From the NCBI GenBank assembly GCA_022821965.1, contig JAJECN010000055.1, positions 1 through 64,000 of the forward strand: a DNA stretch of 64,000 nucleotides. The letters are read 5' to 3'. Shown piece after piece: positions 48,933 to 62,763 of the stretch. The DNA is from Candidatus Poribacteria bacterium (lineage in GTDB: Bacteria; Poribacteria; WGA-4E; WGA-3G). Every line of letters begins with the position of its first letter. Within the stretch, counting starts at the first letter, position 1. The notes below the pieces were generated by a model. The model had not been told where the DNA came from. It saw only the letters and a list, made by a program, of their open reading frames with translations, and made no database searches. The translations under genes were made by a program, and so were the position numbers.

Positions 48933-49703
48933 TTAAGGATGTGCATGGATGAATTTTCCGATTCGGTTGAATCGGACGTTACCTACCATCTTCCACACTT
49001 CCCACAACTTCGCTGGGCGAGCATCGAATGACCAGTACACCATAAATGCTTGCCCTTTAATGTCACTTACATCTACAGGTCCCCAAGAGCGGCTATCACT
49101 GCTCTGGTCTCGATTATCACCCATCGCGAATACCGTACCTTTGGGAACAGTGAAGGGTTTCCCCTCAGGAAACTTACGCCTAAATTGATTTGCGGTTAAC
49201 CCATAGTCTGAAAAAGCCTCAGTCTCTGGCAGATACTCTGGCTGACGAAAGGGTGGGAAATCACCTCTCCTGAAACGGCTAAAGGTCATGTGCTTTGTAT
49301 AATGGCTATCCTCAGCCTTTTTGCCATTGATATAAAGCGTGTCGCCGCGTGTTTCAATTGTATCCCCTTCAACGGCTACGATGCGCTTGATAAAATTGCG
49401 TTCTCGATCGTGTGGCGGGATAAAAACGAAAACGTCACCACGGGCGGGCTTATGGAAATCAAAAACTTTGATGTCCGTGCCGGGGATTTTAACGCCGTAA
49501 ATAAATTTACATACCAGAATCCGGTCTCCGATAAGGAGCGTATCTTCCATTGAACCCGATGGGATTTTGAAAGCCTCAACAACAAAGGGACGTATGAACC
49601 CGAAAACGAGAATCAGTGCGACAACGATAACTTGCGCATATTCCCATACGATCGTTTTCTGAAATTTTTGCCATTTAGATAATTGGGTGTCGTTATCATT
49701 CAT
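48933..49703 (-). CDS. lepB: signal peptidase I (copy 1)
   Basis: 256 residues, ATG 49703. One N-terminal membrane span (VIVVALILVFGFIRPFVVEA), then the serine/lysine dyad: Ser51 in KIPSGSMEDTL (box B) and Lys106 in RNFIKRIVAVEGDT (box D). Box E, GTVFAMGDNRDQSSDSRSWG, is also present. It cleaves signal peptides of exported proteins. Tandem with copy 2 (47 bases apart), in the lepA-lepB arrangement. Confidence 0.95.
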   Translation of the reverse strand: MNDNDTQLSKWQKFQKTIVWEYAQVIVVALILVFGFIRPFVVEAFKIPSGSMEDTLLIGDRILVCKFIYGVKIPGTDIKVFDFHKPARGDVFVFIPPHDRERNFIKRIVAVEGDTIETRGDTLYINGKKAEDSHYTKHMTFSRFRRGDFPPFRQPEYLPETEAFSDYGLTANQFRRKFPEGKPFTVPKGTVFAMGDNRDQSSDSRSWGPVDVSDIKGQAFMVYWSFDARPAKLWEVWKMVGNVRFNRIGKFIHAHP

Positions 49704-49750
49704 AATAGGATGAAGCCTCTATGACTAAAAGGTGCTCTCCTTTGCCGAGT

Positions 49751-50557
49751 TTAGTTTACCTCGAATGCGTCCGATTCTGAGGGGATAAGTTTACCAATTC
49801 GATTAAACCGGATATTGCTTACCAGTTTCCAAGGTTCCCATAACTTCGCCGGACGATTGGCAAACGAAAATGCAACCATAAAGGCTTGCCCTTTAATATC
49901 ATCTACAGCGACGGGGCCCCAGAAACGGCTATCGCTACTCTGGTCACGATTATCGCCCATAGCAAACACCATGCCCTTCGGCACAGTGAAGGGTTTCCCT
50001 GCCGGAAATTTTCGCCTAAACTGACTTTCGGTCAAGGTATAGTCGTCGTAATTTTCACCAGTCGGGAGATATTCAGGGTACCGGAACGGTGGGAAATCCT
50101 TTCTGAAATGGCTGAACCTCAGATGCTTCGTGAAGGTCCTGTCGTCAACAGCTTCGCCGTTCACATAAAGCATATCGCCACGCGTTTCAACGGTATCCCC
50201 TTCAATGGCTACAATGCGCTTAATAAAATGTCGCTCGTCATGTGATGGAATAAAAACGACGACATCGCCGCGTGTCGGTTCGTGAAAGTCAAAAATTTTT
50301 ATATCTGTGCCAGGAATCTTGACCCCGTAGATAAACTTACACAGTAGAATCTGATCGCCGACGAGGAGTGTATCTTCCATGGATCCAGAAGGGATTCTAT
50401 ACGCTTGAACAATAAATGGATTTACGAAACCAAAAACAAAGATGAGTGAAACAATAATTTGCTTTATACACTCATGAACATTTGATTTGTGAAGTCTTTT
50501 CTGTTTAGTTAATTTCGGTTCAGGGACTTGTGTGCATTTTTGTGTATTCTTCTTCAT
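49751..50557 (-). CDS. lepB: signal peptidase I (copy 2)
   Basis: 268 residues, ATG 50557. Dyad Ser59 (RIPSGSMEDTL) and Lys113 (RHFIKRIVAIEGDT), box E GMVFAMGDNRDQSSDSRFWG, and an N-terminal membrane span (IIVSLIFVFGFVNPFIVQAY). Clearly a paralogue of copy 1, possibly with different substrate preference. It follows lepA closely and probably shares its transcript. Confidence 0.95.
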   Translation of the reverse strand: MKKNTQKCTQVPEPKLTKQKRLHKSNVHECIKQIIVSLIFVFGFVNPFIVQAYRIPSGSMEDTLLVGDQILLCKFIYGVKIPGTDIKIFDFHEPTRGDVVVFIPSHDERHFIKRIVAIEGDTVETRGDMLYVNGEAVDDRTFTKHLRFSHFRKDFPPFRYPEYLPTGENYDDYTLTESQFRRKFPAGKPFTVPKGMVFAMGDNRDQSSDSRFWGPVAVDDIKGQAFMVAFSFANRPAKLWEPWKLVSNIRFNRIGKLIPSESDAFEVN

Positions 50558-50629
50558 TATAGCAACCGTCGGGTAAAACGGTGATCTCCTTTCTCATATC
50601 TCAGTGTCTTTGTCGGGCGCGATTGTGCG

Positions 50630-52435
50630 CTACTCATCAGTTGCAAGCATTGCCATGAATGCTTCTTGGGGGACATCAACCTCGCCGATCTGTTTGAGCC
50701 GTTTTTTGCCTTCCTTCTGTCTTTCAAGCAATTTTCGCTTTCGTGTCACATCGCCGCCGTAGCATTTCGCGGTGACGTTTTTTCGGAGTGCTCGTACTGT
50801 TTCGCGTGCGACAATCTTGTTTCCAATTGCGGCTTGGACTGGAACCTCAAACATCTGTCGCGGGATTAGTTCTTTTAACTTGGATACTAATGTCTTTCCA
50901 CGGGTTTCTGCATCGTCTCGTGGCAAAATCGTCGAAAGTGCGTCTACGGGTTTGCCGTTCAGCAGGACATCTAATTTGACAAGTTTTTCGGTTTTGTAGT
51001 CCCCGATGTCATATTCTAACGAACCGTAACCGCGGGTCAACGATTTAAGTTTTGGGTAGAAGTCCATTAGCATTTCACTGAGTGGAAGCTCATAGAGCAA
51101 TTGCACGCGACTTGCGTCCAATTGGTTCATCCGCTTATATACACCCCGACGCTTCTGACAAAGTTCCATCGCATTTCCAATATACTCGCGAGGAACTATA
51201 ATGTCAATATTGACATACGGTTCTTCAATTCGTTCGATATTGTTCGGTTCTGGGAGGTGCGCGGGGTTGTCAACTGGTACGTGTCCACCCGTTTTCAGGT
51301 GGACCCGATACATCACACTCGGGGCGGTTCGGACAAGCTCAAGCCCAAATTCCCGTTCAAGGCGTTCATGGATAATCTCCATGTGAAGCAATCCGAGAAA
51401 GCCGCACCGAAATCCGAAACCGAGTGCGACGGATGTTTCAGGCTCAAAATTGAAAGAGGAATCGTTCAGGCGTAGTCTATCGAGTGCCTCGCGCAGGGCA
51501 TGAAATTGGTTTGTGTCCGCTGGATAGAGACCACTGAATACAAGCGGTTTCATTTCTCGGTAACCCGGAAGTGGTGTCGCTGTCGGTTTTGTGTGGTGTG
51601 TGATTGTATCCCCGATTTTCGCCTTGTCAATCTCTCGGATACCCGCGATGAGATAGCCGACTGCACCGGTGCGAAGTTCTGTCGTCGGTTGCATCTCTGG
51701 TGTGAAGATGCCGACCTCTTCAACTTCATAAGAACGTCGCGTCTCCATGAGTTGAATCTTCTCCCCCAGTTTTACACTGCCATTGAAGATTCGGGTGTAC
51801 ATGATGACCCCGCGATAGTTATTATAGACGGAGTCAAGCACGAGTGCCTTCAAAGGGGCTTCAGTTTCACCTACGGGGGTGGGGATCCGGTTGACGATTG
51901 CTTCCAATATGGCAGGAATGCCAATTCCCATTTTCGCGCTAACAAGGAGTGCTTCGTCAGCGGGAATACCGATGACCTCTTCTATCTGCCGTTTGGCTTC
52001 GTCGGGCTGTGCTGTTGGCAAGTCGATTTTATTGACGACTGGAATAATCTCAAGGTCGTTGTCAATCGCGAGATACGCGTTTGCAAGGGTTTGCGCTTCG
52101 ACACCTTGGGCGGCATCGACAATTAAAATCGCACCTTCGCATGCAGCGAGACTACGAGAGACCTCGTACGTGAAATCGACGTGTCCGGGCGTGTCAATTA
52201 GGTTGAGTTCGTAGCGGTTTCCATCGTCAGCCGGATAGTGAAGTTTGACAGCGGTTGCTTTAATCGTAATACCGCGCTCACGTTCAAGATCCATCAAGTC
52301 AAGCACCTGTTCGCGCATATCGCGTTCGGTGAGTGTATTCGTGTGTTCGAGGAGCCTGTCGCTCAGCGTGCTTTTCCCGTGATCGATGTGTCCTAAAATA
52401 CAGAAATTCCGTATGTGTTGAAGATTAGTTGGCAT
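50630..52435 (-). CDS. lepA: elongation factor 4 (LepA)
   Basis: 601 residues, full length for LepA. Translational GTPase acting in ribosome back-translocation or biogenesis. G1 [16 protein letters not shown], switch [16 protein letters not shown]3 [21 protein letters not shown]4 [10 protein letters not shown], and the LepA-specific C-terminal domain ([40 protein letters not shown]). It heads the lepA-lepB-lepB-selB run. Confidence 0.98.
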
Positions 52436-52644
52436 GATATAGATAGTATATCACAACTTCTGTCGGATTGTCCATAAAATTGCATGCATAGCAGATAAAT
52501 TGATTTCTTCGGATTTCCCCAGAAAACCTCGCCGACGGAGATAGAGCGTTTGTCTCTCCATCGTCTACCGAAATGTGTACTTGTTTCTCGTTTTACCGTA
52601 AAGCAAAAGCCGTTATCACCTTTTTCATCAAGGCATAAGTCCTG

Positions 52645-53520
52645 CTATGCGTCAGCTGCTTGTAGGAACGCCTCAAAGGTGGGAGTGAGTGCTGCGGTTT
52701 GTAGCAATTGCATCAGCTGCTCGGCGTCAGAGATAGCTTCAAGGGCCTGCTTGGCGGGCTGCGGGTCGCGCTGCGGGAATCGCGCCGTAAGAACGGCGAG
52801 AATGTTACGAATAGAGGTCTCGCGTGCCCCTTGTTCGATGCCGCGTTGCATTACAACTTCGTAAAAAGGAGACTCTTGCATGATTTCCTCCGATATAAGT
52901 GTCTGAAACAGTTCAGGGCTATGGACTAAACTCCCGAAAATGGATAAGGCAAACAGTAACGTCGCGCGCGTCTGATTATCAACCTGTGCTGACAGCGTGA
53001 TCTCTACACATTTCTCAGCCCAAGTCTCACCCGTCATATCCGCAGGTGGACGCATCAATGGCGTGAAAGGTAATAGGCCTATAGAAGACGCATCCAAAAA
53101 CGAGGCACCCTCTAACTCAGCCAACCGGATCACCTGATACTTATACGACAAACTACCTCGCATCTCGTTACCATACGCGTAATACCCGGGATCCGTGCGC
53201 CCCGCAGGCGGACGAAGATACAACACTGTGGAATACACTGGTAACTCATATTGGAGTCCCAAGAAACTCGCATACGCCAGCATCCGCAACGGCATCGGTT
53301 TGTCCCGGCTATCGTCTGTTTGTGTCTCTATATGGAGGATAGCTTCCTCGTCCGGGAGACGTATCTTAAAGGTCATATCGCTGTGATGCATCTTGATTGT
53401 AGGTTGCTCAGTGGTGAGTTTCTCCTGAACGTCAACGTCTGTGGTCTTGAGAGCTAACGCTGCAAATTCATTTGGAAACCGATCCATCAGGTGCTTCACA
53501 ATCTCGTCATATTGGGACAT
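52645..53520 (-). CDS. Rpn-like / PD-(D/E)XK nuclease-family protein
   Basis: 291 residues, ATG 53520. N-terminal ~140 residues resemble the Rpn/cyanobacterial transposase-like nuclease family: YDEIVKHLMDRFPNEFAALA, then ILHIETQTDDSRDKPMPLRM and LAYASFLGLQYELPVYSTVLYL (E-x-Q in place of E-x-K of the nuclease core). The middle is helical, and the C-terminal part (GIEQGARETSIRNILAVLTARF) is a helical tail also common in this group. Rpn proteins are variable, often phage-defence or recombination related. It borders the restriction locus but points away from it. Confidence 0.7.
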   Translation of the reverse strand: MSQYDEIVKHLMDRFPNEFAALALKTTDVDVQEKLTTEQPTIKMHHSDMTFKIRLPDEEAILHIETQTDDSRDKPMPLRMLAYASFLGLQYELPVYSTVLYLRPPAGRTDPGYYAYGNEMRGSLSYKYQVIRLAELEGASFLDASSIGLLPFTPLMRPPADMTGETWAEKCVEITLSAQVDNQTRATLLFALSIFGSLVHSPELFQTLISEEIMQESPFYEVVMQRGIEQGARETSIRNILAVLTARFPQRDPQPAKQALEAISDAEQLMQLLQTAALTPTFEAFLQAADA

Positions 53521-53637
53521 ATAAACATTGTACCCCTGTTTTTAGCAAAATGTCAACCTTTTTTTCGTCAGGCTGTAGGGATCAAGGGCATTCAATTGTC
53601 GATTTTTCGATTAAATTTTCACACCCCAGGCCCAATA

Positions 53638-53659
53638 GGTTCGGTTTCCTAACCGAACC
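53638..53659. repeat. REP-type hairpin
   Basis: GGTTCGGTT (53638-53646), loop TCCT, AACCGAACC (53651-53659): a perfect 9-bp stem in non-coding DNA. A CCAGG-C/T-CC..TAGG string precedes it and recurs about 70 bases downstream. Confidence 0.6.
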
Positions 53660-53817
53660 ATAAGTGTCAATTTTAGAGAAAATAACCGTTGTAGTTCCAG
53701 GTCCGGTAGGGTTTTTGCTTGGTGTCTTTGCTTGGGTGTTTCTTCAGCATGTTTATATTTTAATCACTAAAACTTTTCTAAAGCCCGAAATTGATGGCTA
53801 CGGGTGTATCTACAGCG

Positions 53818-53917
53818 GATTCCAACCAGTCGATAGCAACCTATTCATCTTGTTCAATTGCGATTTCGACTGCGCGTTTGGCATGTTCCAGAAGGTATTT
53901 GGCGCGCTTGCGTAAGT
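53818..53917 (-). pseudogene. 3' fragment of an hsdS gene
   Basis: Minus-strand translation gives LRKRAKYLLEHAKRAVEIAI, then EQDE-stop-VAIDWLESA, matching the end of the hsdS at 55192-56607. The alignment is gap-free over 100 bases at about 85% identity by eye. A Gln codon has become TAG. The rest of the gene is missing, so it is a relic. Confidence 0.85.
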
Positions 53918-54301
53918 CCTATAAAAAAAGTAAAATGGACTGGACATCCCCGAAAAATTATAGTATAATTAATGCTCTAAAAGTAGGCAAGCTTCGCAGC
54001 AAATATCCCGCCTATCAATTCAATCAGGTGTGTTTTCAGAATCAGGTGTTAAATCAATTAAAATCAGTTCGCAATCGTCTGAAGCCTATTTATCTATATC
54101 AAAGGGAGGGTAATTTTCTGGTACAAGAGCTCTACAAACAAGAATGACAGGACGCTTTTTGTCATTCACTATAGTTTCTGAATTTTCCACTATTCATTAC
54201 TTCATATTTTAGAATTTATGTAGGTATATCATTCCGCGCCCTGGAAGTCAAGAAAAATGGCTTACAAGGCTCAGTGCTTAAATAATTTAAGAGGTGATAT
54301 A

Positions 54302-55168
54302 ATGAGCAAGTCCCCACGCAATCATATTGTTTCCCAATTCTACTATAGAAACTTCACATCTATTCCCGATAAACATAAGAATCAGCAAAAAGTTTATACC
54401 TTAGACCATAATGGCGTTATTGAAAATATTGAAAAAAGTGGAAGGAAAATTGGATCTATATGTCATGAGATAGGATATAATACTGAACAGCAAGAAAATT
54501 ATTTTAGACAATTGGAAAAACTTGCAGCTGAATCTATACGTGGGATAATAGGTGGTAATTTTCACAATATTGACTTACAAAATGTTCGCGGTTATGTTGG
54601 ATATTTAATCGCTAATCAGCCTCACACCAGACAGGTGTTTATAGATAACATAGTAGAGAGTACAAATGCTTTGGATATCAAAGATGGTATTTATGGAAAA
54701 GGTGCTCTCACACTAATGCTTACCAAATTGATAACTGATGAATTAATAACTTGGGAATCCTATATTTACCGTGTTCAGGAAGTAGGACCTAATGAATATA
54801 AAGATCTGTTTATTACAAGCGATAATCCTGTTCATACGAACAGAATTGATGCCATTAAAGTGGGTCAAATGCCGATGTATGGGGATGTTGAAAATGCAAG
54901 AATGGAAAATGGTAAAAAAGTCGTCAAATATTATTGGGATCTGCCGGACCTTTCCATTGAAGAAGATACGTACTATTTTCTTCCTTTGAATCCTATAACT
55001 GGCTTCTATGTGTATAGAACACCCTCACAGAGAAGCAACTTGATGCAAGATGAACATGTTGTTCAAAAAACAAACCTAAACCAATTTAGAGGGGCAACTA
55101 AATTCGCAATTGGGCACGATTGTAAAGTATTGAAAAAAATACACAAATCTCATTTAATCAATAAGTGA
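54302..55168 (+). CDS. DUF4238-family protein in a restriction locus
   Basis: 288 residues from ATG 54302 (AGGTGAT upstream). The start NHIVSQFYYRNFTS, the DLFITSDNPVHTN segment and YYFLPLNPITGFYV match the DUF4238 pattern (HyvPqfyLrnFs..., fiTSDnPv..., lPLsp). The biochemical role is unknown. The family turns up as an accessory gene, often near restriction or defence genes. The coding sequence is clearly more AT-rich than its surroundings, which suggests transfer. It lies between two copies of an hsdS 3' end, and its own end converges on the true hsdS, 23 bases away. Confidence 0.8.
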   Translation: MSKSPRNHIVSQFYYRNFTSIPDKHKNQQKVYTLDHNGVIENIEKSGRKIGSICHEIGYNTEQQENYFRQLEKLAAESIRGIIGGNFHNIDLQNVRGYVGYLIANQPHTRQVFIDNIVESTNALDIKDGIYGKGALTLMLTKLITDELITWESYIYRVQEVGPNEYKDLFITSDNPVHTNRIDAIKVGQMPMYGDVENARMENGKKVVKYYWDLPDLSIEEDTYYFLPLNPITGFYVYRTPSQRSNLMQDEHVVQKTNLNQFRGATKFAIGHDCKVLKKIHKSHLINK

Positions 55169-55191
55169 GGTTGCAAAATCTGAACGGATAA

Positions 55192-56607
55192 TTATGAAAC
55201 AGATTCCAACCAATCAATAGCCACCTGTTCGTCCTGCTCGATTGCGATTTCAACTGCGCGCTTGGCATGTTCCAAGAGGTCTTTGGCACGATTGCGTAAG
55301 TTGAAGGATTCATTGACTTTCTGTTCAATTTCAGTCTGCTTTTCTTTAGGCAGAATGGGTATAGGAAAATCAAGAATGTCATCGTCATCTAAGGTGGGAT
55401 AGGATGTTCCAGTGTTCGGTTTCAATGACCACGTTAGGAAAAGTTTAGAGCGTAGGCAAGCCAATAGGGTTTCTTTGTTAATTTCCCCGTTTTCCCTCAA
55501 GACACAGAAAGCACCGCTCGCGACGTATCCCTCCTCCTGAACAATAGTAATAGCCCCTCTGTAAGTTCTAACTTTAGAGACGATAATATCGCCCTTTTTC
55601 AAGACACGCTTAGCATTCGCAGGTAAATCTTTACCTAAGACTTTCTCTGCTACTATCTCTCCAGTGGAAACGTTAACGCTCCCTATTTCTACATAGCGAT
55701 ACAATTTTTCTGGGTCTACTTCAAAAGTGCTTTTGTTCTGTTTGAATTCATCTCTAATCTGGGTTGGTCTATCGGAGTAATTCTCTATTCCCTTTTCTAT
55801 TTCGTCATATTTCGGCTGGAAATAGTCTGCATCGATGCGTTCGGCGCGCTCGGTGTCTGAAAGGTTTTTGACGAAGGTTAGTTGTTGCTTCGGTTGCCAA
55901 TCCGTGAGACCGAGTTCGGTGAGGAGGAGGGTTTGTGCCTCAATATATCGCGTCTTTGATAGTTCCGTTAACTTTTTCGACTGGAGATAGGTTTTTTCAA
56001 TCACAGATGGGAGGTTGCTCCAAACAGGCATCGGGATTTGGAATAAAAAATAGGGGGCAACTTCAGGTTGGGCACTGCCATATTTGCCCCTCTCTATTGA
56101 TGTTTTACCATACGTGGTGTTGAGAAAAATAGCGAGAAAGAAAGGGTTTAGTTTACCACTTTTGACAATAAAGGTATGAGACGATGAGATAGCACGTTTA
56201 TTTTCAAGGTAGATAGTACACTGACCCGCATTCGCTCCTGACCGCGTTATCAGAATGTCTTTGTGATGTATGGTGTTTTCTTGCAAACGTTCTGCGTCTT
56301 CTTCTGAGATGTAAACAGGATTAGATGTCAGATCAATAGATAGCGGACGAACGTTTTGCGCTCTTAGAAACAGAAAGCCATCATCTATATAATTTCGTTG
56401 TATCTCTTTCGGATGTTTTATCTCAACCTGAAAGTCAATTAACCTATGCGAACTGATTGCTTCAAGTTGATGTTGAATCTTCAGATGGTCGGGGTGGAAA
56501 AACTCCGCGTCAAACCGCATGGAATGTGAAGAATCTATTACGGATTGGTAATTGACAATTGAATAGTGTATGTTAGTGTGTCCATCCAGGGCAGCTTCTT
56601 TTAGCAT
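55192..56607 (-). CDS. specificity (S) subunit of a restriction-modification system
   Basis: 471 residues, ATG 56607, directly after the TGA of the upstream gene. Two target-recognition halves: the first ends in a helical spacer (SVIEKTYLQSKKLTELSKTR), the second in KQTEIEQKVNESFNLRNRAK followed by LLEHAKRAVEIAI, the usual conserved spacers of HsdS. Each TRD has beta-segments such as FLFLRAQNVRP and YRYVEIGSVNVSTGE, and GDIIVSKVRTYRGAITI. It determines the recognised DNA sequence for the upstream R-M polypeptide. Its last 100 bases are duplicated at 53818-53917. Confidence 0.92.
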   Translation of the reverse strand: MLKEAALDGHTNIHYSIVNYQSVIDSSHSMRFDAEFFHPDHLKIQHQLEAISSHRLIDFQVEIKHPKEIQRNYIDDGFLFLRAQNVRPLSIDLTSNPVYISEEDAERLQENTIHHKDILITRSGANAGQCTIYLENKRAISSSHTFIVKSGKLNPFFLAIFLNTTYGKTSIERGKYGSAQPEVAPYFLFQIPMPVWSNLPSVIEKTYLQSKKLTELSKTRYIEAQTLLLTELGLTDWQPKQQLTFVKNLSDTERAERIDADYFQPKYDEIEKGIENYSDRPTQIRDEFKQNKSTFEVDPEKLYRYVEIGSVNVSTGEIVAEKVLGKDLPANAKRVLKKGDIIVSKVRTYRGAITIVQEEGYVASGAFCVLRENGEINKETLLACLRSKLFLTWSLKPNTGTSYPTLDDDDILDFPIPILPKEKQTEIEQKVNESFNLRNRAKDLLEHAKRAVEIAIEQDEQVAIDWLESVS

Positions 56608-58719
56608 TCATTTGGCATCTTCCCAAAACGATAAGTTTTCACTTTTTGCCCATTCAATAAAGGCTTCCGCAATCCCATCACGGAGTTCGCCGTTGTGGTT
56701 ATGTAAGTCATGATTGACAATCAGATGACCGTTTTCGTCTAACTTGTATTGTCCGTCGCTATTTTCGAGAAAAACATAATTGCCGGAATTATCCTTTCCG
56801 CCTTTTTCGGAGACTGCGAAGAAGATAGGATAGTCGTCAACTCTGCGACAAAGCGGGCCTCGGTCAAGGTCATCGTTCCACTTCTGTAGGAAGAGAACAC
56901 TCGTTTTGGTGCCGGTGTGGGGTTTGAATGTGTTATTATCAAGTTCGACGACTGCCAAAATGCGCGCACGTTCCGCGATAAATTCACGAATATATTTATC
57001 AGATGCGTTGTTGAATCTGCCCTGTGGGAGGACAATCGCCATGCGTCCACCCGGTTTGAGGAAGTCGAGGTTGCGCTCAATAAACAGGATATCGCGTCCG
57101 ACTTTACTTTGTGCTTTGTTTCCTTTAAAACCGAGGTTGTATTGGTGGAGGATACGGCGTTCCTTGATGTCGCCAGCGAAGGGTGGATTTGCCATCAGGA
57201 TGTCGAAGTTAAAGCGTCTGTTTTCCGCTGGTTCAGCTCTGAGTGCCTTGAGCCGATCAAAACCGTCTCCGTAGGTGCGTACCCACCGACTGTTTCTTTC
57301 TGTGTTGTCGCTCCACCGCTCGTAATCGAGGGTATTGAGGTGTAAAACGTTGGTTTCACCATCGCCAGCGATTAGGTTGAGGGTTCGGGCGACCCTGACC
57401 GTCTTTTCGTCAAAATCAATGCCGAAGACTTTGAGAACGTGTTCCTTGTCGTCAGGTGGGATTTCAGCGTTGCTAAAAAGGGTTCCAGTGAGTTTGAAAA
57501 TCGTATGCACAGGGAATCCACAACTCCCAGCAGCGGTGTCAATCATATACTCACCGCGTTTCGGGTTGAGCATCTTCACACACATATCAATCACGTGCCG
57601 CGGCGTGAAGTATTGCCCCTTTTCGCCTTTGGCAGATTTACTCACAAGATACTCAAACGCTTCATCAACAATCTGTAAATTGGAGTTAAAGAGTTTGACA
57701 TCCTGCAAACTTGAAACGCAGACGGAGAGATGGCTATCTGAAAGTTCAAACGTTGTTGAATATTCTGGGAAAACACCTTTCCACTGATCCTTTGCGTCGT
57801 CGAAAAGCCTCTGAATTTTAGTTTTCAGTTCGCTATCGGTTTGTCCTGTGTTCCTAAACTCCATAGACCGAAAATCATCGTCGTTGATGGTTTCAACGGC
57901 TTGCTTGAGTATCTCGTAATCTGGATGCTCGACCTCGTAATCTTGATCTGTTTCCTGTATAGCGGTGTTGATGCTTTGTCGTAAGAAATGGTTGATAATC
58001 GTCTTGTCGTTCTGGCTCTTGAATTCGTCATAGAGTTTGGTAAAGATGAGCTTGAAAACCTCCTCAAAAACATCGACCCCCGCATTGGCGAGGACTTCGT
58101 CCTCTAATTCCAAAATAATATCCTTTAAGGATTTCCGCTCGGTGGCGAGTTTATCCTTGAGGATGAGGTCTTTGAGCGTAAAACGTTCGCTGAGTATGTC
58201 AGCGAGGGTTTGGTCGGCGTTGGGTATATCCGTAATCTCTTCAAAGTAATTTGGATCTTTTCGGTGGTAGTGTGAGATTTGCTGTCCGTTTGTCCATACG
58301 GCGATAGGCGCGCCAGTCGCGTTGCAGTAGGAGCGGAGTTGGTCTTTACCGTCTTGGAGTTTCGGTTTCTTTACCTCAACGATGATATACGGGGTATCGG
58401 GTCTATCCTTGTCAAGGATAACAATGTCGGCGCGTTTCTTTTCTCTGCCGAAGTTGACGAGGTGTTCAAACCGGACGCGTTCTCGGGGGTAACGGTATCG
58501 CTTCAGGAGTCGTGCGGCGTAAAGTTGGCGGATGAGTTCTTCGGGTTTTAGTTGGATTGCTTTTCTGCGAATGGGACAGTGGATAAATGCGGTCTCTTTG
58601 CCTTTGACTGTTTGGGTGAGAATTTCTTTTCGCAATGCCTGAACTTCGGTGTTTGTAAAGAGGTCGAGGTGGTAATTGCTGTCTTTGAGGATGGTTTGAA
58701 TGATGTCGGGTTGTGTCAT
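56608..58719 (-). CDS. fused restriction endonuclease - adenine methyltransferase (BcgI-like R-M subunit)
   Basis: 703 residues from ATG 58719 (AAGGA upstream); an open extension to 58971 includes no conserved sequence. Residues ~50-160 carry a type I R-protein-like PD-(D/E)XK nuclease: RADIVILDKDRPDTPYIIVE then VKKPKLQDGKDQLRSYC (Asp98, Glu115, Lys117). Residues ~310-700 are an N6-adenine methylase of HsdM type: GQYFTPRHVIDMCVKML, MIDTAAGSCGFPVHTIF and NPPF (511-514). There is no DEAD-box translocase, so it is not type I. With the S subunit it forms a two-polypeptide system like type IIB/IIG BcgI. Confidence 0.9.
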   Translation of the reverse strand: MTQPDIIQTILKDSNYHLDLFTNTEVQALRKEILTQTVKGKETAFIHCPIRRKAIQLKPEELIRQLYAARLLKRYRYPRERVRFEHLVNFGREKKRADIVILDKDRPDTPYIIVEVKKPKLQDGKDQLRSYCNATGAPIAVWTNGQQISHYHRKDPNYFEEITDIPNADQTLADILSERFTLKDLILKDKLATERKSLKDIILELEDEVLANAGVDVFEEVFKLIFTKLYDEFKSQNDKTIINHFLRQSINTAIQETDQDYEVEHPDYEILKQAVETINDDDFRSMEFRNTGQTDSELKTKIQRLFDDAKDQWKGVFPEYSTTFELSDSHLSVCVSSLQDVKLFNSNLQIVDEAFEYLVSKSAKGEKGQYFTPRHVIDMCVKMLNPKRGEYMIDTAAGSCGFPVHTIFKLTGTLFSNAEIPPDDKEHVLKVFGIDFDEKTVRVARTLNLIAGDGETNVLHLNTLDYERWSDNTERNSRWVRTYGDGFDRLKALRAEPAENRRFNFDILMANPPFAGDIKERRILHQYNLGFKGNKAQSKVGRDILFIERNLDFLKPGGRMAIVLPQGRFNNASDKYIREFIAERARILAVVELDNNTFKPHTGTKTSVLFLQKWNDDLDRGPLCRRVDDYPIFFAVSEKGGKDNSGNYVFLENSDGQYKLDENGHLIVNHDLHNHNGELRDGIAEAFIEWAKSENLSFWEDAK

Positions 58720-58795
58720 AAATTTTCCTTCTTTTTTATTGCGTCCAATTGAGAGGCCTGGAAACCACATATGGACGCAATAATTATAGATATTT

Positions 58796-59404
58796 CTATA
58801 GCGGTTTGACCTTAATGTTTCGACACCAGATTTTGCCGCCGTGGTCTTGGATGCCGATATGTCCACTCCGTGGGAAGTCCTTGAGCGGGATGCCGAATTT
58901 GTTTCGACTTCCATCTGGATTTTGGTGTGCCGTATCCCATTCGTCGAGATCTGCACGGACAATTTCTTCATCGTTGAGTGTCACAGCAATGGTGCTTCCA
59001 TCGCATGTGATTATCATCTCATTCCACTCACCTGCGGGTTTGCAAGTGTTTCGGGTCGGTCCCAAGGCATCGTAGAGTGCGCCGCAGTCGTGGCTATCGG
59101 TAGGTTCCTTACCGTGCGTATCCAAAATCTGGATTTCAAGCCCGCTCTGAACCGCGTCCTCAAGATCTGCCCATCGGACGAAAATTCCACTGTTGACTTT
59201 CGGATCGGTCTTGTACTCAAGTGACAATATGAAATTATCGTAATGTCCTTCAGTGTAGAGGTATTTTCCACCCTGAACGGTGCAGAGAATACTGCCGTCG
59301 TCGATAACCCACCCTTCAGCACTTCCTGTGGCTCCCCAACCGGTGAGCGTCTCGCCGTCAAACAGGGATATCCATCCCTCATTTTTCTCTTTTTCTGTTA
59401 ACAT
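58796..59404 (-). CDS. DUF1080 (3-keto-disaccharide hydrolase-like) protein
   Basis: 202 residues, ATG 59404 with AAGGAG 5 bases upstream. Concanavalin-like sandwich with GWISLFDGETLTGWGATGSA, NSGIFVRWAD, GLEIQILDTHGKE, KPAGEWNEMIITCDGSTIAV and SGHIGIQDHGGKIWCRNIKV. The family includes 3-keto-glycoside lyases/hydrolases that act after Gfo/Idh-type sugar oxidation. No signal peptide is visible. Single gene; it faces away from the R-M pair. Confidence 0.92.
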   Translation of the reverse strand: MLTEKEKNEGWISLFDGETLTGWGATGSAEGWVIDDGSILCTVQGGKYLYTEGHYDNFILSLEYKTDPKVNSGIFVRWADLEDAVQSGLEIQILDTHGKEPTDSHDCGALYDALGPTRNTCKPAGEWNEMIITCDGSTIAVTLNDEEIVRADLDEWDTAHQNPDGSRNKFGIPLKDFPRSGHIGIQDHGGKIWCRNIKVKPL

Positions 59405-59426
59405 GCTTTCTCCTTTATATCTAATC

Positions 59427-59544
59427 TATGGTAAAGTTCAGAATTATTTCGGCATTACGGGAAGGCGAGGATACAATCCTCGCCAGCGGCAGTGAGGATT
59501 TCCTTTACTGAAGAACTGGCTACATATTTTTGAACTTTACTATA
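59427..59544. repeat. inverted-repeat element with REP hairpin inside
   Basis: GTAAAGTTC (59431-59439) and GAACTTTAC (59532-59540) with matching flanks (ATG/ATA) form an element of about 118 bp. Inside is a perfect hairpin GGCGAGGAT (59464-59472), ACA, ATCCTCGCC (59476-59484). No ORF. Confidence 0.6.
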
Positions 59545-59555
59545 AATTGCCATTT

Positions 59556-59615
59556 TTGTAGCATAATCTTTTAGATTGTGCCACTTAGGACGCAGACAAA
59601 CAGTCTACGCTACAA
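59556..59615. repeat. 60-bp element with TTGTAGC inverted ends
   Basis: TTGTAGC (59556-59562) / GCTACAA (59609-59615). The first half (about 59553-59583) matches the interior of the 31700-31823 element (TTTTGTAGCATAA, TTGTGCCAC), so both descend from one repeat family. Confidence 0.55.
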
Positions 59616-59619
59616 TTAC

Positions 59620-60729
59620 CTACCGCAAACTTTCTAAAAATAGTCTTCCAACATCAACGTTATATTCAAAATCTGTTGCTGACCAAGGGCTGTTATAGCC
59701 GATGATCGGCACGTAACTTTCGTGGCGCGACCCGTGTGAACGCACTGCGGTTGGTTCTACTGCAGCTTCCAATTCACCGAAAACCGTCGTTTTATCGGCT
59801 AACACAAAGATGTCACCGATCCGCTCGCGATGGAGGCGGAATGTCCGTGCTGCGTCTTCCGCAGAATATGCCTCTTCAATGCCCGGTGTATCCAGTAGAA
59901 CTTGAATCGCTTCGGATGTATCCGCTTGATTTTCAAGGAACACATAAGCAGCACCCCCCAAATTGCCGTGGTGTGCGACGTACCGATCCTTGATAATCGG
60001 AATCGAACTTGCAGGAATACCGCGTTCTGTGAGCACGCGTCCGGGATCGAGTGTGGTCGTTTTCTCCAACATCCCGTGGTCGGCTGTGATATAGATTTCA
60101 CGCGCCGGTTCGTCATCAATAATCTCCCCGATAATCCTGTCCAATTCTACAAGGTGCTGTTGGGATAGGTCCTCATCGGGTGCGTATTTGTGTTGAACCC
60201 AATCTGTTGTTGAGCAGTAGACGAGTTCAGGGTCGTCCTTACGCAGGGTCTCTCGGACAGCGCGGAGCAGCCACCAGTTGATTTCAACAGAATAGATCGG
60301 TTCAACCGGTCCGACTGTGTCAATGTATTCAGGTGGTGGGTCCTCAGCGGCGACCGCGATGTCCGTGCCTGCTTCCAGCATCCGTAGCAACTTTTTCTTC
60401 GTCACAAACAAGGCAGTTTTGTCTGCGAATTTGTAGGCTTTTGCGGTCTCAAACAGCGTCGGTGCGAGAAGAAAACGGTTGTCCTCAATAAATTCTCCTT
60501 TGCCGGTCGTTCGGTCTACATGGTAATTCGTCGTGATGCCGTGTGTTTCGGGGAATGTTCCGGTTGCGATGCTCACGTTGTTCACATTCGTAACGGAGGG
60601 GATAACGGCATTGGCGTGTACATAGAATCCGGTTTTTGCCAACTGACGGATGGTGGGGAGATTGCTCGCTGCGAGGTAGTCATGGCTACCTGCATCGATA
60701 CAGAGGATGAGAACTTTTCGTCTTTTCAC
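59620..60729 (-). CDS. type I phosphodiesterase, phosphonoacetate-hydrolase-like (alkaline phosphatase superfamily)
   Basis: 369 residues starting with GTG 60729 (KRRKVLILCIDAGSHDY; Asp is a metal ligand). VTNVNNVSIATGTFPETHGI contains the nucleophile Thr and the Asn-pair typical of PhnA-like and NPP enzymes, followed by the C-terminal metal sites: STTDWVQHKYAP (Asp, His), ITADHGMLEK (Asp-His) and SHGSRHESYVP (His). Phosphonoacetate hydrolase releases phosphate and acetate from a C-P compound, but phosphodiesterase activity is equally possible from sequence alone. No transport or regulatory gene is nearby. Confidence 0.85.
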   Translation of the reverse strand: MKRRKVLILCIDAGSHDYLAASNLPTIRQLAKTGFYVHANAVIPSVTNVNNVSIATGTFPETHGITTNYHVDRTTGKGEFIEDNRFLLAPTLFETAKAYKFADKTALFVTKKKLLRMLEAGTDIAVAAEDPPPEYIDTVGPVEPIYSVEINWWLLRAVRETLRKDDPELVYCSTTDWVQHKYAPDEDLSQQHLVELDRIIGEIIDDEPAREIYITADHGMLEKTTTLDPGRVLTERGIPASSIPIIKDRYVAHHGNLGGAAYVFLENQADTSEAIQVLLDTPGIEEAYSAEDAARTFRLHRERIGDIFVLADKTTVFGELEAAVEPTAVRSHGSRHESYVPIIGYNSPWSATDFEYNVDVGRLFLESLR

Positions 60730-60846
60730 GCTTTGTGTTTTGCTCCGCTATCTGGTATTCTGTTGTTGCATTAACTTGCTTGTCTGGAAGAAATTGTAGC
60801 AGATATGTCTCTGAATTGCAAGTTTTTTAACGTAAGTTCGACTTAA

Positions 60847-61081
60847 GCACGTAGGTTGGGTTGAACGGATTCCACCAAAACTCCGAAAATTGATAGAGAA
60901 ATGGAGTCTTTCCATATGGGCAACATCAAACAGAAACCGAGTGAAACCCAACGCTTTTGGGCTGAGGGTATGAAGTTGGGTTTCACTGCGTTCTTGAGTG
61001 TATATGACAACCTGTTGGATTCAACGAGTCTTTGGAACTGCGCACATGCCTTCTCAGTTCCGTTCAACCCAACCTACGGTG
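60847..61081. repeat. fold-back / MITE-like element with 19-bp inverted ends
   Basis: GTAGGTTGGGTTGAACGGA (60851-60869) is perfectly inverted at 61059-61077, and GCAC flanks both ends. Inside, GTTGGGTTTCACT (60975-60987) is the inverse of 60940-60952, so a shorter second fold-back core lies in the centre. The imperfect 30-bp direct repeats outside it may be the duplicated target or an older outer repeat. There is no credible ORF. Confidence 0.75.
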
Positions 61082-61124
61082 CTGTCTAAATTGCAAGTTT
61101 TTTTACGTACGCTTGAATTTTAGA

Positions 61125-61153
61125 TTGTCATTTCGATAGGAATCTGTTATAAT
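61125..61153 (+). promoter_or_regulatory. sigma-70-type promoter
   Basis: TTGTCA (61125-61130), 17-bp spacer, TATAAT (61148-61153). It sits just outside the fold-back element and its right direct repeat, and drives the 61219 gene. Confidence 0.6.
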
Positions 61154-61218
61154 TAAGTGAGCGGGTTTCATAAATCATTAATATCGTATAGAAAGACAGT
61201 AAGGAGCAATTTTCTATA

Positions 61219-62763
61219 ATGTCAGGCACGCAAAAACCGATCCGCTGGTGGCTTCTGTCCGTTATCATTGCCGTTGCTATCCTAAGTATCTTGATAATCC
61301 GGATATTGGACATGGATCACCGTCAAAGCAAAGTATTCTGGACAGCCGTGGTTGTCGTCTTTACAGCCGTTCTGGGTGTCTTGTGGCTATTAGGTTTCTC
61401 TCGTTTCAGGTGGCGGACTAAGTTAACTACCCTTGTCATAGCCATCTTAGGTATCTTTCTCGGTGTAAATCTATTCCAATTCAAAGGGTTCAGTGGCGAC
61501 CTCGTCCCGATATTTGAGTGGCGGTGGCGGGATGAACCGACGACCCTCCGACAGGATCCAAGCAATACATCCGATCCCCAAATATCCATCGCTGACTACC
61601 CACAATTCCTCGGTCAACATCGGAACGGCGTAGTGACAGGTATCAAGTTAAATCTTGATTGGGATACACATCCACCGAAACTCGTTTGGCGACAACCTAT
61701 CGGCGCAGGTTGGTCAGGCTTTGCAGTCGTTGGAAATTCAGCAATCACACAAGAACAAGAAGGTGACTGGGAAAAAGTGGTCTGTTATGAATTACACACC
61801 GGCGAAGTAAAGTGGAGTCATAAAGACCAAGCGCGCTACGACATGGCGCCTGCTGGACTCGGACCGCGTGCCACACCAACAATTTCAGGGAACAGAGTCT
61901 ACACCGTCGGTTCAACAGGAATCCTCAACTGCCTCGACTTTGAAACAGGCGAGCCACTCTGGACGACCAATACCTTTGAAGATAACAAAGCAGACATACC
62001 ACCTTGGGGGGTTAGTGTTTCACCGCTCGTTTTCGATGAACTTGTTATCGTCAGTGCCGGTGGTGCAGTCGCATACCACAAAGAAACAGGCGAAATCGTG
62101 TGGACAGGTTATCGGACACAAAGCGGTTATAGCTCACCACTCCTTACAACTTTAGCAGGCACCGAGCAAGTTGTTATCTTTAACCAAGGTTTAATCACCG
62201 CCCATGAACCTTTAACTGGGAAACTTTTGTGGAAGCAACCGTGGGTGCAAACATACGCAGAATGTGTCGCACAGCCGGTGCCGATTCCTGATGACAAACT
62301 TCTCGTCTCAACCGGCTACGGTGTCGGTGCAAAGCTTTATCAACTCTCGCGGAATTCCACTGATCAATTCGACGTTTCAATTGTATGGGAAACCATATAC
62401 CTCAAAGCGAAATTCACCAATATCGTCCATTACGAAGGCTATCTGTACGGACTTGATGACGGAATCTTGGCTTGTGTAAACCCAGTTAACGGCGCACGTC
62501 AATGGAAAAGCGGTAGATACGGGCACGGGCAAACGCTTTTAATTTCAGATGTCCTGTTGGTAACCACTGAATCAGGCGAAGTTGCCCTCATTGAACCAGA
62601 CCCAGAGCGTCATATTGAACATGCACGTTTTGCGGCTGTAACGGGTAAAACATGGAACACTCCAGCACTTGCTGGTCCCTACTTATTGGTGCGAAATGAC
62701 CGCGAGGCAGCATGTTATCAACTACCAGTAATCGACACAACAACCAATACTGGAACGGACTGA
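61219..62763 (+). CDS. membrane-anchored PQQ-like propeller protein
   Basis: 514 residues, ATG 61219 with AAGGAG upstream. Three membrane spans in the first ~95 residues (WWLLSVIIAVAILSILII; WTAVVVVFTAVLGVLWLLGF; LTTLVIAILGIFLGVNLF) precede a large PQQ-like propeller. It opens with DYPQFLGQHRNG, followed by YELHTGEVKWSH, CLDFETGEPLWTTN, ACVNPVNGARQWKSGRYGHG. The YPQFLGQxRNG start is the same family as the secreted propeller at 10650-11987. There are no catalytic PQQ-site residues. Probably an envelope scaffold or binding protein. Confidence 0.88.
   Translation: MSGTQKPIRWWLLSVIIAVAILSILIIRILDMDHRQSKVFWTAVVVVFTAVLGVLWLLGFSRFRWRTKLTTLVIAILGIFLGVNLFQFKGFSGDLVPIFEWRWRDEPTTLRQDPSNTSDPQISIADYPQFLGQHRNGVVTGIKLNLDWDTHPPKLVWRQPIGAGWSGFAVVGNSAITQEQEGDWEKVVCYELHTGEVKWSHKDQARYDMAPAGLGPRATPTISGNRVYTVGSTGILNCLDFETGEPLWTTNTFEDNKADIPPWGVSVSPLVFDELVIVSAGGAVAYHKETGEIVWTGYRTQSGYSSPLLTTLAGTEQVVIFNQGLITAHEPLTGKLLWKQPWVQTYAECVAQPVPIPDDKLLVSTGYGVGAKLYQLSRNSTDQFDVSIVWETIYLKAKFTNIVHYEGYLYGLDDGILACVNPVNGARQWKSGRYGHGQTLLISDVLLVTTESGEVALIEPDPERHIEHARFAAVTGKTWNTPALAGPYLLVRNDREAACYQLPVIDTTTNTGTD

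Follow-up and report, generated by a model that had tools for sequence, protein, structure and literature searches.

The interval bounded by KDH, a 3-keto-disaccharide hydrolase gene, and by lepA in a Candidatus Poribacteria bacterium is probably a site at which defence genes are swapped. In the stretch of DNA analysed here (the window; 64,000 nt of contig JAJECN010000055.1), this interval combines a restriction-modification fusion gene (RM) and its specificity gene (hsdS, encoding S), a DUF4238 gene that is probably independent of them, and a detached hsdS 3′ end, the orphan tail, most likely left as a scar of exchange.

Anatomy of the KDH–lepA Locus

The features of the locus, with the evidence used to assign them, are as follows.

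58796–59404, minus strand: 3-keto-disaccharide hydrolase gene (KDH), conserved left border
56608–58719, minus strand: RM fusion polypeptide, 703 aa (Pfam, motif conservation, alignment to BsaXI RM)
55192–56607, minus strand: S (specificity) subunit, 471 aa (Pfam, PADLOC, PDB relatives)
55192–55301, minus strand: 3′ tail of the intact hsdS, proximal copy of the direct repeat (repeat search, hsdS-end profile)
54302–55168, plus strand: DUF4238 gene, 288 aa, AT-rich and convergent with hsdS (PF14022; start set via G041)
53918–54301, no strand assigned: AT-rich leader of the DUF4238 gene (promoter and terminator consensus matches only)
53818–53917, minus strand: orphan hsdS 3′ tail, the last ~33 codons with one in-frame stop, distal copy of the repeat
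52645–53520, minus strand: Rpn-like gene (TIGR01784, weak)
50630–52435, minus strand: lepA (elongation factor 4), conserved right border

An ATG at 58971 in the RM open frame is not the start, since relatives begin at 58719. The DUF4238 gene was placed at 54302 and not at 54257 because DNA homology to a related copy (in genome G041) begins at the ATG at 54302, which is preceded by a good ribosome-binding site (AGAGGTG). GC content falls from about 0.45–0.50 in the surroundings to 0.33–0.35 across this gene. Its leader holds a promoter-like site (53941–53969, 11/12 matches) and a terminator-like hairpin (54142–54167, 11 pairs), both of them consensus matches only, and shuffled sequence has no fewer promoter-like sites than this region. 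An Rfam search of nt 50000–62000 gave no match. The left border given in the earlier note (52645) takes in the Rpn-family-like gene, which matches TIGR01784 at 21.9 bits, below the cut-off of 52.1. Beside lepA lie two tandem signal peptidase I-like genes (48933–50557), the copy number of which varies among relatives.

The two hsdS ends form a direct repeat (53818–53917 and 55202–55301) of 100 nt with 85% identity and a spacing of 1384. The orphan fragment matches a profile built from the hsdS 3′ ends of 41 relatives (E = 1.7e-32), and its translation matches residues 436–469 of S at 88% (E = 1.8e-10), far beyond chance; the in-frame stop lies where DEQ has become DE-stop. The components listed in the earlier note (RM, S, DUF4238 and a 100 bp copy of the hsdS end) were all recovered by Pfam, the repeat search and the profile, and the AT-rich DUF4238 gene does lie between the two hsdS ends.

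A Predicted Two-Gene Enzyme Resembling Type IIB Systems

RM matches PF13588 (HSDR_N_2, 95.8 bits) and PF02384 (N6_Mtase, 118 bits), and a Pfam scan returned only HSDR_N_2 and N6_Mtase/Eco57I, with no helicase or translocase domain. This agrees with Type IIB enzymes such as BcgI and BsaXI, in which an N-terminal PD-(D/E)XK nuclease and a gamma-type N6 methylase are fused in one subunit without a translocase and S is separate; two-gene Type IIB enzymes have been described by Loenen et al. (PMC3874165). Across 36 relatives (pairwise identity ≥51%), R96, D98, E115, K117 and Q127 of RM are invariant and Y131 almost so. In a family profile alignment, D98, E115 and K117 align to D90, E105 and K107 of BsaXI and are the equivalents of three of the four nuclease-domain residues essential for BsaXI cleavage (E73, D90, E105 and K107; PMC11997821), the match of that domain to BsaXI being weak by sequence (17.7 bits). 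E85 is also invariant, and its alignment to E73 of BsaXI is ambiguous by two residues. Unlike its Type IIB counterparts, the window's nuclease domain is closest to the N-terminal domain of Type I HsdR (HSDR_N_2, QxxxY motif), and the overall similarity of this predicted enzyme to BsaXI lies mainly in the methylase.

HsdR, which a Type I system would have, was sought among the ORFs of the locus and on the 67,659-base contig C20 with no match; HSDR_N (hsdR-type) matches in the same genome are on contigs C47, C61, C51, C36 and C17, and none is on C20. PADLOC files the RM family as a Type I methyltransferase. RM and S fit a BcgI/BsaXI-like two-gene Type IIB enzyme that would most likely methylate a bipartite site, the RM nuclease domain cutting unmodified DNA as in BcgI and BsaXI. 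Type IIB enzymes cleave to either side of such a site and have a 2RM:1S make-up, with two target-recognition domains in S. The earlier proposal of a BcgI-like nuclease–methylase fusion without a translocase, paired with an S subunit, is borne out at the level of sequence.

S matches PF01420 (43 bits) and many of the Specificity_I models of PADLOC; only its second Methylase_S domain passes in Pfam, and the specificity models match both halves. The halves vary independently against the nearest relative (G003), with ~85% identity over residues 1–280 and ~28% over residues 281–440, so that the second recognition domain (TRD2) appears to have been exchanged. S alleles in the genus are, by this comparison, domain-shuffled, though not through the direct repeat.

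At E ≤ 1e-20, 49 of the 98 related genomes gave a match to the RM gene, more distant methylases being among the matches. Related RM genes (55–65%) are also present on seven putative viral contigs of IMG/VR (L268–L274), with S directly behind RM on six of them and phage-type genes adjoining on several; their ORFs, read by eye, include no recognisable HsdR, and a third gene follows S in L270, L272 and L273. A small extra gene stands between RM and S in the relatives L252 (3213–3875) and L254 (2736–3572); the intervening proteins of G004 and G069 differ from each other, and the window has no such gene.

The DUF4238 Gene

The DUF4238 protein belongs to PF14022 (40.8 bits against a gathering cut-off of 27), the family of a protein from a P2-like phage hotspot that confers strong T7 resistance by itself (PMC9122126). 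Unlike that gene, the window copy is on a bacterial chromosome beside an RM–S pair, and its activity is predicted. The copy in G041 is 74% identical, frameshifted and solitary, with no RM gene nearby; the dN/dS against it is 0.21. A scan of genome contigs found only three distant relatives, all from Candidatus Poribacteria. A tblastn search of phage and plasmid records with the window's DUF4238 gave no match, nor did comparison of an AlphaFold model (moderate pLDDT of 65, from 4 sequences) with the PDB at E ≤ 0.001.

In a survey of DUF4238 neighbourhoods covering 85 genomes of the phylum, the same RM family adjoins a homologue in G004 (~150 bp away, divergent from RM) and in G069 (1.2 kb), and in G079 an orphan S tail lies at ~1.4 kb from another. 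Further homologues, in sequences read by eye, have a CD-NTase or other DNA methylases nearby. DUF4238 is linked to restriction genes and not tied to them, since it is beside RM–S in some genomes and alone in others: it occurs without RM–S in G041 and L089, and nearly all RM–S relatives are without it. The three neighbouring cases could be taken to mean that DUF4238 is a functional partner of RM–S, such as an effector or a guard that fires when restriction fails. Against this stand the many RM–S loci that have no DUF4238, the change in its position and orientation at each occurrence, the identity of only ~16% between the window protein and its G004 homologue, the copies found alone or near other methylases and CD-NTase, and the ability of a DUF4238 gene to work alone against T7; a partnership is considered very unlikely. 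DUF4238 is probably a separate, single-gene defence system, set convergently behind hsdS.

The linkage of DUF4238 homologues to restriction genes, on which the earlier note had made its reading depend, is thus seen in the phylum (G004, G069 and G079). Its suggestion that DUF4238 takes part in defence holds for a defence gene in its own right (PMC9122126, PF14022) and finds no support for a subunit of the restriction enzyme, as each occurs without the other.

Variation of the Interval in the Genus

The KDH–lepA interval was compared over ~30 genomes of the genus. It is empty (<750 bp) in 11 genomes and holds Rpn alone in two (G030, G023). In others, RM or S remnants are accompanied by a HEC-01-like AAA gene (G001), an AAA gene (G013), trypsin-TPR-TIR plus AAA genes (G026) or a HigA-like gene (G019, G031), and the fullest array, in G029, reads RM–S–NACHT–tail–trypsin–TIR–AAA. 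The cargo behind hsdS is defence-like by Pfam and PADLOC, and the interval is, by this predicted content, a variable defence site across the genus. The view of the earlier note that this is an inserted or exchanged defence locus was upheld by this comparison with related genomes.

In G026 (L143, 1–7425), a SelB–signal peptidase–lepA stretch is tandemly duplicated beside the KDH site. Convergent genes that take the place of cargo behind an hsdS end were also seen in L131 (1024–3525, 833 aa) and L057 (4121–5209, 362 aa); neither protein has a Pfam or PADLOC match, and both are candidates for new defence genes.

Orphan hsdS Tails and Their Origin

Fragments of the hsdS 3′ end recur in many genomes, both downstream of an intact hsdS and at sites that no longer have one, and the same flanks are found with and without cargo. 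At an acetyl-CoA-synthetase-like site, S is followed directly by the flank in L077, L060, L192 and L199, and by NACHT, tail and flank in L059; the flanks of L059 and L077 are 87% identical over 1.5 kb. At the KDH site, or beside a KDH-matching flank, the corresponding pair is S–flank in L190 versus S–NACHT–tail–flank in L065, L194 and L197 (81–85%). L192 and L206 are 98.4% identical over 3038 bp, beginning exactly at AACTTACGC of the tail, and their mismatches inside the tail are limited to about the first 100 nt, a pattern that fits a homologous crossover within the tail. In the window's own genome, contig C5 (L092, 4897–7842) carries two hsdS tails: the first is joined in frame to an N-terminal piece of RM, the second comes after a NACHT-type gene that is split into two frames, and a HigA-like gene lies beyond the second tail.

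The orphan tail of the window most likely belonged to an earlier hsdS at the same site, because the DNA that lies after such tails follows intact hsdS genes in other species; the window locus, for which no pre-insertion ancestor was sampled, is explained by analogy with those species. In the proposed course of events, an earlier RM–S pair would have occupied the site, of which ~110 bp of the old hsdS end remain. The present S end and the DUF4238 stretch would then have been imported, we infer by homologous recombination using the homology of hsdS 3′ ends, leaving the old tail downstream. At the same junction, relatives carry NACHT, AAA, HEC-01-like or trypsin-TPR-TIR genes instead.

Reassortment of S subunits through the repeat, as in phase-variable or shuffling hsdS systems, had been suggested by the earlier note, and a variable gene flanked by a direct repeat of hsdS is what such a system could show. 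The anatomy speaks so strongly against it that it is almost certainly wrong: the repeat covers only the last ~33 codons, without any target-recognition domain, one copy has a stop, and nt 50000–62000 contain neither a second S gene nor an inverted repeat. Phase-variable hsdS loci are marked by repeats through which S genes swap their target-recognition domains; none is present here, and a crossover would just delete DUF4238 and leave one S tail. It is also quite improbable that tandem hsdS genes simply decayed beside chance neighbours, without recombination favouring the 3′ end of hsdS. Remnants of RM and S are indeed common, and the C-terminal end of hsdS, as its most conserved part, would be the easiest to recognise; yet the DNA immediately before the tails consists of cargo leaders or RM fragments and not of decayed S genes, the flanks match after intact and orphan ends, and the breakpoints cluster.

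This clustering bears on the mode of exchange. Tail breakpoints fall at about h118–126 in several contexts, more often than random cuts predict: simulated cuts land in the cluster in ~6.5%, giving p of about 2e-4 to 4e-4 for 5 of 10–11, figures that are suggestive only because the interval was chosen post hoc and two of the contexts may be related by descent. L204 was left out of the independent breakpoints, as by eye it has the AAA-type junction (TTTTCTCATAA and the adjoining tail); a BLAST search with its upstream 250 nt gave no match. Plain homologous recombination does not account for the clustered breakpoint. A possible but unlikely alternative is that of site-specific cassettes, in which the hsdS 3′ end holds an attachment site near AACTTACGC and units of a tail and an antisense gene integrate and restore the S frame, in the manner of integrases at gene 3′ ends. 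The orphan tails of the NACHT, AAA (618 aa) and DUF4238 cargo and the deletion junctions have nearly the same starting point, to within a few nucleotides, and the tail does restore the S frame. On the other side, no recombinase was recognised in the cargo (the IS3-type transposase pair of L052 is read as a later insertion), the L192/L206 crossover lies inside the tail and not at its border, the orphan tails begin elsewhere in L054, L055, L057, L205 and L248, and a common ancestry of the NACHT and AAA junctions is possible. Nor do tail and cargo travel together in any clear way, the differences being too small to decide. That the hsdS 3′ end is a true attachment site, at which units of hsdS tail and gene insert at one nucleotide and rebuild the S frame, is rather improbable; if true, it would amount to a cassette system of defence genes docked on a restriction locus.

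Relation to Known Systems and Significance

Accessory defence genes also adjoin hsdS in Type I loci, namely DarTG2 between hsdS and hsdR, where a recombination hotspot has been proposed (PMC12255303), and TgvAB beside hsdS (PMC11411939). Unlike these, the system of the window is HsdR-less, its cargo lies behind hsdS and is often convergent, and orphan tails mark past exchanges. The presence of defence genes beside hsdS is known, and these three features set the site apart as a variant. Papers listed for orphan or truncated hsdS include work on phase-variable systems and redundant hsdS copies. RM and S also resemble the MAD2 methylase and the MAD5 specificity protein of MADS, but the scores (283 against a curated cut-off of 720 bits for MAD2, 141 against 400 bits for MAD5) are far too low for membership, and no further MADS-like operon adjoins the window pair.

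So far, a few Type I loci have led to the proposal that defence genes are exchanged at the side of hsdS. The genus described here provides many natural sites with and without cargo, and with scars, from which exchanges and their breakpoints can be traced. The genes lying between an intact hsdS and an orphan tail, such as those of L057 and L131, suggest a cheap route to new defence genes.
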